Made by a program: the position numbers and the translations under genes
The notes under the pieces: model-generated
Databases searched by the model: none
What the model was told of the DNA's origin: nothing
The model's input: only the letters and a program-made list of their open reading frames with translations
Part shown: piece by piece, positions 27,336-31,570 of the stretch
Layout: each line of letters begins with the position of its first letter
Position numbering within the stretch: position 1 is the stretch's first letter
Assembly (NCBI GenBank): GCA_009705225.1
Contig: WLCQ01000004.1
Span: forward strand, 1 to 43,550
Source of the DNA: Actinomycetota bacterium
Lineage (GTDB): Bacteria > Actinomycetota > Acidimicrobiia > Acidimicrobiales > Acidimicrobilacustridaceae
DNA length: 43,550 nt
Direction of reading: 5' to 3'

Positions 27336-28328
27336 ATGGAGATCTCAATCGGTGTCGTTCCCGGTCCGGATGCTGTTCGACGAGCGCAACTCGCCGAGGA
27401 ACTCGGCTTCTCGCGGGTCTGGCTCTACGACTCGGCCGCCATCTATGAAGACATCTGGATGAACCTCACCGAGATCGTGGCGAACACCTCCATCGACGTC
27501 GGTACGGCTGTGCTGGTTCCCAACCTCCGTCACGTCATGACAACCGCATCTGCCATCGCCACACTTGAGCGGATGGCTCCGGGCCGCCTCACTGCGGCAT
27601 TCGGAACCGGCCTCACCGCACGCTGGGTGCTCGGAAAATCAGCGCTCTCCTGGGCGACCCTTCGCTCCTATGTCGAGCAATTACGTGGCCTTCTGCAGGG
27701 TGAGACCGTCACCGTTGCCGGGGCACGTGCCCAGATGATCCACCTGCCCCATCTTGCCGCTCAACGGCCGATCAACACACCACTGCTCATGTCTGCGCTC
27801 GGCCCGAAGGGGCTCGCCATCACCGCCGAGATGGTGGCGGCCGGAACCGTGGATGGACTCATCGACACCGAAGGTGCCGATGGGCCGTTCGGTCGGAGGG
27901 TCCAGATGGTTTCCGGAACGGTCCTCGACAGAGGAGAAGATGGTTCAAGCCCACGCGTACGCGATGCCGTCGGTCCATGGTTCGTGGTCGGGCACCACTA
28001 TGTCTGGCAGCAGTTCCCCGAGGTTCTATCGGCGATGCCCGCCGGTTCGGAGTGGCTCGCCGGCATTGAGGCTGACCGTCCAGAGGGCGAACGTCATCTG
28101 ATCGTGCATGAGGGTCATGTCACCGACGTCAGCGCTCGCGACCGTCAGATCATTGATGCAGCGACGGATGAGTCGATCCTCGGCGCAGGGTGGATCGGCG
28201 AGAAGGACGCGATCGCGGAGCGGGCTGGAGCCTCCGAGGCTCGAGGGGTGACCGAACTGCTCTACACGCCGGCTGGATCGGACGTGGAGCGCGAGATGCG
28301 GGCATTTGCCGCTGCAACAATCCGCTGA
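27336..28328 (+). CDS. LLM class flavin/F420-dependent oxidoreductase (MER-like)
   Basis: A 330-residue luciferase-like protein resembling F420-dependent methylenetetrahydromethanopterin reductase-type enzymes. MEISIGVVPGPDAVRRAQLA is followed by AEELGFSRVWLYDSAAIYED, NTSIDVGTAVLVPNLRHVMT and LERMAPGRLTAAFGTGLTAR, the standard series of strands, with SALGPKGLAITAEMVAAGTV near residue 150. The cofactor is probably F420, by family similarity only. It is divergent from the NTF2-like operon (80 bp) and is followed after 6 bp by the large flippase-like gene, with which it is probably cotranscribed. Confidence 0.88.
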   Translation: MEISIGVVPGPDAVRRAQLAEELGFSRVWLYDSAAIYEDIWMNLTEIVANTSIDVGTAVLVPNLRHVMTTASAIATLERMAPGRLTAAFGTGLTARWVLGKSALSWATLRSYVEQLRGLLQGETVTVAGARAQMIHLPHLAAQRPINTPLLMSALGPKGLAITAEMVAAGTVDGLIDTEGADGPFGRRVQMVSGTVLDRGEDGSSPRVRDAVGPWFVVGHHYVWQQFPEVLSAMPAGSEWLAGIEADRPEGERHLIVHEGHVTDVSARDRQIIDAATDESILGAGWIGEKDAIAERAGASEARGVTELLYTPAGSDVEREMRAFAAATIR

Positions 28329-28334
28329 CGATCG

Positions 28335-30731
28335 ATGACAATGACCGAGACACGGCGTGACCGAGTGCGTTCGTCCTGGCGGGCGATGTTCGGTGTCGTT
28401 CCTGACCGAGGACTCCACCGACGCCCGACCGAGATACTCCGGATCTTCGTTGGTCTTCTGTTACTGGGTCTCGGAGCACTACGTGCGAGCAGCATCAGTC
28501 CTGTGGAGGAATCGATCCACAACGTTGTCACCAGCCTTCCAGACGTCATCGTCACCGGGCTGCGCTGGATCAACACCACAGGCGCCTTGGTGGCGATCGC
28601 CGTAGTGGTCATTGCGGCGTTGATCTCACGACGCCCCCGGTTCATCGGGGTCATCGCCCTTTCGGCTGGAGCGACACTGCTGCTCGGTCGCATTCTCGAG
28701 ACCATGGTGAGTCGTCCCCATGACTCATCCGGACCGATTGCTGGCTATCCGGCGTTTCCAAGCCTGCGGCTCGCTGTCGTCGCCGCGGTCTTTTTCGCGG
28801 CTAGCCCGGAGCTCACACGCCCGGCCCGTCGGCTGATGTCGATCCTGTTGAGCATCATCGCGGTGAGCCTCGCCTCTGTCACGGGCGGGTACCCAACAGG
28901 AATCCTTGGCGCCCTCGGATTGGCATGGATGGTCGCGGCGGTCGTGCATCTCGTGCTCGGGTCTCCAGATGGAGCTCCAGGGCCTGAGACGGTCGTTGCA
29001 GATCTCGCTTCAATGTCGATCGCTGCGGAGAATCTCGTGCTCGCCCCCCAGCAGCATTGGGGCGAAACCGCCTTCATAGGTCGCGATAGCCACGGCCCAT
29101 TGCGCGTCGCCGTGATCGGCCGTGACGCAACAAATGCCCAATTCCTCACGAAACTGCTCCGGTTCGTCTGGATGAAGGATTCCGGCCCCGGCCTAGCCGC
29201 AACACGCGAGCAGCAGATCGAACACCGCGCGTATCTCCTGATGCTTGCGGAGCGCGCGTCAGTGCCCGCACCTCGGGTGGTCGACAGTGGTCCGGTGGGT
29301 GGCAACGGCGACGTGGTCTTGGTGTTACGCGATACCGACGGGCCCACTCTTGATTCATTCGACGAAAGCGACACCGCAAAGATCACCGACTCAGTTCTCG
29401 ATCGCGCCTGGCACTCACTCAACGAGCTTCACAGCATCGGGATCGCCCACGGGGCGATCTGCCCGTCAGCACTCCGCCTCAACGATCTCGGCGCTGTCTC
29501 CTTCGTTGATCTGGCCGATGCCGACGGGCGACCATCCGTCGACGCCCTCATCCTCGATCAGGTCGCGCTCCTCATCACCCTTGCCGCCCTCACCTCACCG
29601 GAACGCTCGCTCGCCGCAGCGCAGCGCTCCCTTGACCACGACGGTCTGCGCTCGATGCAGCCGCTCCTCGAGGCAACAGCTCTTCCGCGCGCCACCCGTC
29701 GTGAAATTGGTGATGCCAAGAAGATCACTGCTGTGATCTCGCCGCTGGTTGCCGAGGTCACAGGCTTCAGTCCTGAGAAGCTCACTGAACTCCGGCGTGT
29801 GACACCAGCAAACATCCTGCTGGCTGCGGCGACGGTCCTTGGTTTCTACCTGCTCCTCGGACAGCTCACGAAGATCGACTTCGCGACAACGTTCGACGGC
29901 GCCCGGTGGTCGTGGGTGGCGGTGGTCGTGATCGTGGCACAGCTGCCGCTGTTCGGAACCGCCATGGCGCTGCTCGGTGCCGTCAGCACATCGCTCCCGC
30001 TCAGACCCGTGTTCATCCTCCAGTTCGCGAACAAGTTCACCGGCCTCGTGGGTGGCGGAGTTGCCACGATGGCCATGACCGTTCGGTTCTTCCAGAAACA
30101 GGGCCTTTCACCAGCCGTTGCGGTGACCTCGAGCTTGATGACCTCGTTCTCATCAGGGATCGTGCAAGTTGTCTTGGTGGCTTTCGGCCTTCTGCTCGGC
30201 GACACCACTCTGCATCTCAGTCACTCGGGCGGAGGAGCGAGCAGCCTCGCTGAGAAGCTGGCAGTCGGCCTGGCGGTCGTGACGGTGATCGGGATAGTTC
30301 TCGCGCTCATCCCGCATTTCCGCCGGCGGCTGATGACCCTCATCAGTCCACATCTCCGTGCTGCGCGGACCAACTTCATCACGGTCGTCGCGGAGCCCCG
30401 CAAGGCCGTGCAACTCTTTGCCGGAAACTTCATCTCTCAGTTCTGTTATGCGCTTGTGCTCTGGGCGGCACTCCATGCCTACGGGTATTCCTTGGGTATC
30501 CCGCAGTTGATCGTCATCAACTCGATCGCCTCGATCATCGGCGGCATTGCGCCGGTTCCCGGAGGCATGGGGGTCATCGAAGCGGGACTCATCGCGGGAT
30601 TCACTGCTGCTGGCGTGCCCGACCAGACTGCGATCGCGGCAACATTTACCGCCCGCATGTTCACCGCCTACTTACCGCCAGCGTGGGGCTGGGTGGCGAT
30701 GCAATGGATGCGCCGTCACGACTACATCTGA
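28335..30731 (+). CDS. three-part membrane protein: PAP2-like, kinase-like and flippase-like (LPG synthase TM) domains
   Basis: A 798-residue polytopic protein. Residues about 20-215 form a six-helix PAP2-like unit, but its motifs are degenerate: AFPSLR where phosphatases have PSGH, and ASVTGGYPTGILGA where they have SRxxxGxH. Residues about 225-485 look like a cytoplasmic kinase-like domain with AHGAICPSALRL at the catalytic loop (no catalytic Asp or Asn) and FVDLAD at the DFG position. Residues about 490-790 are the YbhN/MprF-type flippase-like domain (lysylphosphatidylglycerol synthase TM region), ending in GGIAPVPGGMGVIEAGLI and the FTAYLPPAWGW segment. A lipid or undecaprenyl-linked translocation role is likely. 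No frameshift; ATGs at 28335 and 28341 are both possible. Confidence 0.82.
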   Translation: MTMTETRRDRVRSSWRAMFGVVPDRGLHRRPTEILRIFVGLLLLGLGALRASSISPVEESIHNVVTSLPDVIVTGLRWINTTGALVAIAVVVIAALISRRPRFIGVIALSAGATLLLGRILETMVSRPHDSSGPIAGYPAFPSLRLAVVAAVFFAASPELTRPARRLMSILLSIIAVSLASVTGGYPTGILGALGLAWMVAAVVHLVLGSPDGAPGPETVVADLASMSIAAENLVLAPQQHWGETAFIGRDSHGPLRVAVIGRDATNAQFLTKLLRFVWMKDSGPGLAATREQQIEHRAYLLMLAERASVPAPRVVDSGPVGGNGDVVLVLRDTDGPTLDSFDESDTAKITDSVLDRAWHSLNELHSIGIAHGAICPSALRLNDLGAVSFVDLADADGRPSVDALILDQVALLITLAALTSPERSLAAAQRSLDHDGLRSMQPLLEATALPRATRREIGDAKKITAVISPLVAEVTGFSPEKLTELRRVTPANILLAAATVLGFYLLLGQLTKIDFATTFDGARWSWVAVVVIVAQLPLFGTAMALLGAVSTSLPLRPVFILQFANKFTGLVGGGVATMAMTVRFFQKQGLSPAVAVTSSLMTSFSSGIVQVVLVAFGLLLGDTTLHLSHSGGGASSLAEKLAVGLAVVTVIGIVLALIPHFRRRLMTLISPHLRAARTNFITVVAEPRKAVQLFAGNFISQFCYALVLWAALHAYGYSLGIPQLIVINSIASIIGGIAPVPGGMGVIEAGLIAGFTAAGVPDQTAIAATFTARMFTAYLPPAWGWVAMQWMRRHDYI

Positions 30732-30742
30732 TCTACTGCCGC

Positions 30743-31570
30743 TCAGATTCGATCCTCGGACCGGAGCAGATCCTCGATGGCCTGGAGTCGATCAATGACC
30801 CGAAGGTGACGGGTGTGCTCGTCCTCGGACGTATCGCCAGCAGGAGATGCTTCAGGGATTGATGGTGCAATCTCGACCTCTTCACCAGTGCCCTCGGCAC
30901 GGTCGGCGATCTCGCGACGGGCTGCAGCCTGATCCATGAAACTCGACGCGATCTGGGCCGTGATGACCGCAACCGTGGTGAGCCCGACGCCCATGATCAG
31001 GACCGCCACGATGCGACCCCCAAGCGTGACGGGCGTGTAATCGCCGTAGCCAACAGTTGAGACGGTGCATGCCGTCCACCACAGAGCTACCGGAACGGAC
31101 GTGATGCTCGCTCCGTCAGCTCCGTGCTCGAAGACGACCACGAGGAGAGCGAAATTGAGCACGACCAGAACGGCGACAGCAAGAAACTCGAGCAGGTTCC
31201 CCTTGCGGAACATCGTGCGCAGGAGTCGGATGCTGAACACGAGGCGCAGCGGTGGAAGCAGCACCACGAGAGCGCTGAGGGGATGGGCCATCACATACCG
31301 CAAGGGCCGCTTGGAGAGCACCGCCCTGACTCCGATATCGATCGCGTAGACCACGGAAAGCCCGAGACGGGCAGTGATCCACCACACCCGGTAGCTCGAG
31401 AAGGTGAGCATCGTGGAGATGGGAGTGCAGCTCAACCAGATGGTGAAGAGGGCGAGAATGTCGAGTGGCGCTCGCGTGCGGCCAGTCCAGCGATCGACCC
31501 GTGGATTCCAGTCCGACTCTCCGCTCGATCCGTCGGCCCTGACCTTCTTGGGTACGGCTTCGGCTGTCAT
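30743..31570 (-). CDS. potassium channel, six-helix, TVGYGD selectivity filter
   Basis: A 275-residue ion channel. Four hydrophobic segments between residues 36 and 148 are followed by the pore helix WWTACTVSTVGYGDYTP with selectivity filter T172-D177 and a last inner helix (GGRIVAVLIMGVGLTTVAVI). An S4-like helix with spaced arginines (R109, R115, R118, R122) precedes the fourth segment, so some voltage sensing is possible. The C-terminus (about residues 215-275) is acidic and ends in a helix, IDRLQAIEDLLRSE, that may form a tetramerising coiled coil. There is no RCK domain. The ATG follows GAGGAA at 5 nt. It lies 47 bp downstream of an acyl-CoA ligase gene and converges on the flippase-like gene (11 bp). 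Confidence 0.92.
   Translation of the reverse strand: MTAEAVPKKVRADGSSGESDWNPRVDRWTGRTRAPLDILALFTIWLSCTPISTMLTFSSYRVWWITARLGLSVVYAIDIGVRAVLSKRPLRYVMAHPLSALVVLLPPLRLVFSIRLLRTMFRKGNLLEFLAVAVLVVLNFALLVVVFEHGADGASITSVPVALWWTACTVSTVGYGDYTPVTLGGRIVAVLIMGVGLTTVAVITAQIASSFMDQAAARREIADRAEGTGEEVEIAPSIPEASPAGDTSEDEHTRHLRVIDRLQAIEDLLRSEDRI

Follow-up and report, generated by a model that had tools for sequence, protein, structure and literature searches.

Introduction

There is only a partial understanding of how bacteria return carrier lipids across their membranes, and for many flippases of family PF03706 we know of no assigned lipid. The described systems closest to the locus reported here are MprF, the bifunctional lysylphosphatidylglycerol flippase/synthetase (structures 9j8s, 9goe and 7f47), the PAP2 phosphatases (5jki, 6ebu and PgpB 8bm3, with SepP among the NCBIfam models), and the Bud32/PRPK and RIO kinases. 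Mycobacterial MviN, of the ActPs3 pseudokinase family, is an actinobacterial envelope transporter with a fused pseudokinase, as sections of a 2025 review of bacterial pseudokinases describe it; the main text of that review contains no mention of PAP2, flippase or lysylphosphatidylglycerol (PMC12599244). Excerpts of another report describe Rv0585c of M. tuberculosis as a conserved integral membrane protein whose role is unclear (PMC9324642).

Here we analyze a gene in a window of 43,550 nucleotides, the whole stretch of DNA under study, whose product combines a PAP2-like, a kinase-like and a flippase part in one chain. The parts belong to known families; in the open PMC literature we found neither a description of their three-part combination nor a text naming PF03706 and PF01569 together. 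Judged from sequence comparison and predicted structures, the protein is most likely a lipid flippase whose pseudo-phosphatase and pseudokinase would serve as lipid-binding or control modules. Rare relatives that keep both catalytic sets suggest that a single protein able to recycle a membrane lipid stood at the origin of the family.

Results

Gene and domain organization

The window is a single contig of a draft genome of 2.6 Mb that is an estimated 94% complete. The nearest named contigs come from Microthrixaceae MAGs, at 82% and 69% identity, which makes the organism an acidimicrobial actinobacterium. The window holds an intact ORF of 798 residues with an ATG start, lying, as a first-pass annotation had described, 6 nt downstream of an LLM oxidoreductase gene; the coordinates and the motifs quoted in that annotation are all present in the sequence (Table 1). 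The fusion protein is the sole full match in its own genome, which carries three further PF03706 genes. Each of these shares a contig (C173, C146 and C2 of G000) with a lipid-phosphatase gene, either BacA or PAP2, at roughly 5, 2 and 13 kb, a proximity that may be due to chance.

Table 1. Coordinates of the fusion gene, its parts and motif positions, and the upstream gene, in the window.
Feature	Position	Strand	Basis
Whole gene, three-part membrane protein, 798 aa	28335..30731	+	ORF reading; homologues with the same layout
PAP2-fold part (residues 25-210) with degenerate catalytic motifs and six predicted TM helices	28407..28964	+	Model; 5jki match; profile link to intact PAP2
PAP2 motif C1 remnant, I120-P128, with I120 in place of the Lys	28692..28718	+	Alignment columns
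PAP2 motif C2 remnant, PSLR (142-145) replacing PSGH	28758..28769	+	Sequence and alignment
PAP2 motif C3 remnant, L179 to G189; Arg, His and Asp all replaced	28869..28901	+	Alignment columns
Bud32/RIO-fold pseudokinase part, residues 217-480	28983..29774	+	7szb match; weak Bud32 profile match
A259 at the beta3 Lys position	29109..29111	+	Alignment columns
HGAICPSA (372-379) replacing HRDxxxxN	29448..29471	+	Sequence and alignment
DLA (392-394) replacing DFG, Asp kept	29508..29516	+	Alignment columns
D408, sole position invariant (frequency 1.00) across the kinase states	29556..29558	+	Column frequencies
MprF/YbhN-type flippase part, residues 490-798	29802..30728	+	PF03706 over cut-off; 9j8s match
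LLM-class oxidoreductase gene, 6 nt upstream of the fusion	27336..28328	+	PF00296

Predicted folds and topology

Pfam assigns PF03706 to residues 499-785 (78.7 bits against a cut-off of 33.4) and no other family to the window protein: the PAP2-like and kinase-like parts drew none, and PF01569 gave no match at E up to 1. Among the NCBIfam models, full-length MprF, whose cut-off is 600 bits, reached 53.9 with only the flippase part matched, and Bud32 matched weakly at residues 291-411 (E 0.0016). The MviN family is absent from the Pfam and NCBIfam matches, the transporter part being PF03706, and a sequence search of the PDB with the window protein returned no relative.

An AlphaFold2 model of the whole protein was built from 42 related rows (mean pLDDT 82.7, pTM 0.63). 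Residues 490-796 of this model share the fold of the MprF flippase (9j8s; Z 23.7, rmsd 2.6 over 249 residues), and residues 218-447 match PRPK/Bud32 7szb (Z 15.9, rmsd 3.4 over 196 residues), with RIO kinases ranking just below. Because the list of structure matches for the whole protein barely tests the PAP2 part, this part was modelled alone, using 71 rows, none of them with the catalytic set (pLDDT 94.2). The resulting model matches the B. subtilis PAP2 phosphatase 5jki (Z 15.4, rmsd 3.1 over 173 residues) and LpxE (Z 14.0). Its best 20 structure matches are PAP2-type enzymes or their relatives, including IPC synthase, G6PC1 and haloperoxidases, which we take to be PAP2 superfamily members, and the row that follows has a Z of only 6.5. 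Foldseek by itself gave a weak match to 5jki (E 0.003). A profile of the 71 degenerate PAP2 parts found the six fusions with an intact PAP2 part at E values of 2e-33 to 3e-49 and matched none of 4,348 shuffled proteins. The two cryptic parts, PAP2-like and kinase-like, are real on the strength of this profile continuity and of the predicted-structure matches. The folds proposed for them in the first-pass annotation are thus both predicted by modelling, and its third claim, an intact MprF/YbhN-type flippase region, agrees with the PF03706 score, the 9j8s fold and the retention of family-conserved residues.

Charges were counted on the model helices of the PAP2 part. The loops expected to lie outside (51-69, 125-143 and 183-187) contain one Lys or Arg in total and the inside stretches ten, eight of them at the N-terminus. 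There is moderate evidence, on this predicted topology, that the old PAP2 site faces outward and that the kinase-like part lies in the cytosol, a location that would also suit an ATP-using ancestor.

Catalytic residues

In the column alignment, the positions of the PAP2 Lys, SGH, Arg, His and Asp hold I120, S143-L144-R145, L179, G185 and G189, and the motifs KxxxxxxRP, PSGH and RxxxxxHxxxD are absent from the window protein. In the kinase-like part, alanines occupy the positions of the HRD Asp (A374), the Asn (A379) and the beta3 Lys (A259); the DFG Asp is retained as D392, in a DLA context. The first-pass annotation was accurate both in reading PSLR for PSGH, at residues 142-145, and in finding HGAICPSAL to be without the catalytic Asp and Asn, which correspond to A374 and A379. 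Intact catalytic residues displaced to other places were looked for in the alignment of relatives, and none were seen.

The beta3 Lys, the HRD Asp and the Asn are all lost in 14/14 rows from the genus, and the PAP2 catalytic set is lost in all 13 genus rows that have the PAP2 part in frame. Given that catalytic residues are missing from all 14 genus members read, their absence from the window protein is not a sequencing error. Alone among the genus members, L065 (8168-10264, genome G019) has no PAP2 part in frame; a short matching N-terminal piece lies just upstream in another frame, making a frameshift or an assembly error likely. The pseudo-enzyme state thus holds for the genus but not for the whole family, as 26 of the 163 fusions have the kinase set complete, and 6 of these have the PAP2 set as well.

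We sorted the relatives by our own definition of kinase states, with all four residues present (KIN+), two or three (kin~), or none or one (kin-). The residue replacing the HRD Asp varies within the genus (A, S or G). H372, W359, R276, E296 and above all D408, probably the alpha-F Asp of the kinase fold, are conserved across all kinase states. We read these five as residues of the fold or of binding and not as a new catalytic set.

Relatives and history

A whole-genome search found matches to any part of the protein in 51 of 61 relatives (E up to 0.001). Matches were also found in 67/198 genomes of the class (E up to 1e-20), in 100/395 genomes (E up to 1e-120) and, across the phylum, in 41/296 genomes (E up to 1e-30). 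From these relatives we gathered three-part fusions in two batches, 83 in the first and 80 held out, for a total of 163; 18 of the 101 kinase-bearing rows of the first set had no flippase part and were dropped before counting.

Just over half of the fusions (83/163) combine a dead PAP2 part with none or one of the four kinase residues, 54 combine it with two or three, and 20 with the full kinase set. Both catalytic sets are full in the remaining six (L147, L149, L152, L173, L217 and L237), counts for which the motif pattern of the fused PAP2 C2 was slightly wider in the held-out batch than in the first. No fusion among the 163 has the PAP2 set without the full kinase set; where the PAP2 set is present, the full kinase set always accompanies it (6/6). 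PF01569 exceeds its cut-off in each of the five intact fusions scanned (L147, L149, L152, L173 and L217).

Parsimony on a quick tree gave ten changes for the full kinase set and two for the PAP2 set. In a smaller, unrooted tree of the first batch, its three intact fusions group in a single clade (SH-aLRT 98), and the genus of the window lies deep within the other half. The simplest history would be that of an ancestor active in both parts, in which PAP2 catalysis was lost early and kinase catalysis later and repeatedly. As the tree is unrooted, this ancestral state is favoured by simplicity but not proved, and replacement of the PAP2 part is a possible alternative.

Several relatives have no flippase part. 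Two PAP2-kinase proteins from the dropped rows, in L143 (4538-5962) and L144 (4746-6296), have a full PAP2 set and a partly degenerate kinase; as the reverse of the pattern in the flippase fusions, they count against a strict order of loss. A second PAP2-kinase group shows HRDxKPxN or similar intact kinase motifs and a partly degenerate PAP2 part (L082 4539-6197, L083 3958-5700, L084 4134-6182, L085 2861-4606, L086 529-2268, L087 4150-5607 and L151 3792-5585), and standalone PAP2 genes lie near those in L082, L084 and L085. On contig C29 of genome G041 (L050 and L051), three family members occur within about 26 kb, two of them full fusions and one a PAP2-kinase protein without a flippase. Another relative, in L136, is convergent with a GH92 gene. 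We take Rv0584/Rv0585c to have the same convergent GH92 arrangement and Rv0585c to be a possible M. tuberculosis member of the three-part family.

Selection

Values of dN/dS were obtained by the Nei-Gojobori method for the six genus pairs with dS estimable for all parts; a seventh pair was saturated in two parts. With some dS values near saturation, dN/dS was 0.068-0.212 for the PAP2-like part, 0.057-0.199 for the kinase-like part and 0.025-0.081 for the flippase part, the most constrained of the three. The flippase part also keeps residues that are conserved across the family. Both dead enzyme parts are under strong purifying selection, and the gene is not decaying. This selection fits a retained non-catalytic role for the two parts that had earlier been called pseudo-enzymes.

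Gene neighbourhood

The LLM oxidoreductase gene adjoins the fusion in 14/14 loci of the genus and was not found near the sister-genus loci L058 and L074. Because this neighbour is confined to the genus, it is uninformative on the function of the family, and we set it aside as a functional partner. On the other side, a predicted ion-channel gene (PF07885; window 30743-31570, minus strand) is convergent with the fusion gene at a distance of about 12 nt and is conserved in the genus and in the sister genus (L058). Outside the genus, the neighbours are members of common families and PAP2 genes, with no conserved neighbour that points to a pathway. In two distant genomes, the gene directly upstream of the fusion belongs to the chromate-transporter family (PF02417; L134 5328-6272 and L152 2255-3526), and an ABC1-type atypical kinase gene lies near the fusion in L211 (1913-3877), where the same cluster of neighbours recurs at five loci in four genera.

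We also counted intact standalone PAP2 genes within 3 kb of the fusions, using all rows, including those with short flanks in which an adjacent gene could be missed. Among the first 83 fusions, such a gene accompanies 7/10 whose kinase is intact and whose PAP2 part is dead, 0/70 with a degenerate kinase and 0/3 with both parts intact. The corresponding counts for the 80 held-out fusions are 3/10, 5/67 and 0/3 (Fisher p 0.063 for intact against degenerate kinase). When held-out rows were limited to those with a 3 kb flank or a PAP2 gene found, a filter that favours hits, the first two counts became 3/9 and 5/38. A relatedness-corrected test of independent pairs on the tree, PAP2 neighbour against kinase, was not significant (6 pairs, median p 0.625). 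Weakened on the held-out loci and non-significant after correction for kinship, an adjacent PAP2 gene was rejected as a functional rule and is kept as a hint only.

Discussion

Our preferred reading, to which we give a probability of about 0.55, is that the protein is an MprF/YbhN-type lipid flippase carrying two retained, non-catalytic former enzymes, an outward-facing pseudo-PAP2 and a cytosolic Bud32/RIO pseudokinase. The flippase part would move a lipid, and the dead parts, one on each side of the membrane, could bind that lipid or its head group or else act as a gate for the flippase.

The six relatives with full catalytic sets carry all the residues that a more ambitious proposal calls for. 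In them, and in an ancestor like them, the phosphatase outside might dephosphorylate a carrier lipid, the flippase flip it and the kinase inside rephosphorylate it. We advance only tentatively, and think it rather doubtful as it stands, that the family originated as such a one-protein machine, acting on a polyprenyl-type lipid and returning it to the inner leaflet. The window protein would then have arisen later, once transport had been uncoupled from the chemistry, with its dead enzymes now serving as receptors for lipid on both faces of the membrane. The best NCBIfam phosphatase model for the PAP2 part of L147, L149 and L217 is the undecaprenyl-diphosphatase SepP, far under its cut-off, as it also is for the neighbouring standalone PAP2 proteins of L039, L047, L100 and L224; this ranking may be a hint of polyprenyl lipids. 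A role for the fusion as the only route of undecaprenyl phosphate recycling was rejected. Genomes of the genus have DedA-type proteins (21/21, of which 17 exceed the cut-off), BacA (20/21) and other PAP2 genes (20/21), and 2/21 have PF04018, which we take to be PopT-type. Since DedA, BacA and other PAP2 genes are present in the genus, nothing shows a need for the fusion in carrier-lipid recycling.

In a rival account of the window protein, the pseudokinase would serve the envelope transporter much as in MviN, a documented actinobacterial case (PMC12599244), and the PAP2-like part would merely aid assembly in the membrane. We hold this to be possible, if clearly the weaker account: the window pseudokinase does keep surface-independent residues of the fold and not the ATP Lys, but it is of the Bud32/RIO type and sits in the middle of the protein, not as a C-terminal tail domain. 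Selection on the PAP2-like part, about as strong as that on the kinase-like part, would also go unexplained, as would the intact relatives. It is improbable that either or both of the seemingly dead parts have some unconventional activity left, such as the transfer of phosphate or nucleotides through the DFG Asp. Some pseudokinases with lost motifs are active, D392 is retained and purifying selection is strong; set against this, three of the four kinase residues and all PAP2 catalytic residues are gone in the readable genus rows, and the variable residue at the HRD Asp position makes no new catalytic residue evident there.

The possibility that the flippase part no longer transports, the whole protein being a membrane scaffold, takes up the fact that two of the three parts are already non-catalytic. 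We consider it very unlikely, however, as no other part is as constrained as the flippase (dN/dS 0.025-0.081), which also keeps the family-conserved residues. Least credible of all is an error in the PAP2 and kinase assignments, with a chance likeness of helices and strands behind the matches. Although the window protein draws neither family from Pfam and Foldseek alone gave only E 0.003 for the PAP2 part, the profile is continuous with fusions whose PAP2 exceeds the Pfam cut-off, relatives carry kinase motifs at the same columns, and both parts have fold matches.

A widespread actinobacterial protein with phosphatase, kinase and flippase in a single chain allows carrier-lipid return to be tested directly. 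The chemistry of the intact relatives should reveal the lipid, which would then be the candidate cargo of the forms with dead enzymes. In addition, a single architecture spans a clean series that starts with a pair of active enzymes and ends with conserved pseudoenzymes.

The comparison with known systems brings out what is shared and what is particular to this family. With MprF, the window flippase shares its fold (Z 20-24 over about 250 residues) and PF03706; MprF has a synthetase part, whereas the window protein has none and carries PAP2-like and kinase-like parts instead. The six-helix fold and the positions of the active-site motifs are those of PAP2 phosphatases, but the catalytic residues are all replaced and the part falls under the PF01569 threshold. 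Similarly, the bilobal fold is held in common with Bud32/PRPK and RIO kinases (Z about 14-16, with a weak Bud32 profile match), from which the window part differs in being without the beta3 Lys, the HRD Asp and the Asn and in sitting between two membrane parts. MviN belongs to another transporter family, has another type of kinase and has no PAP2 part; its likeness to the window protein is one of arrangement and not of descent.
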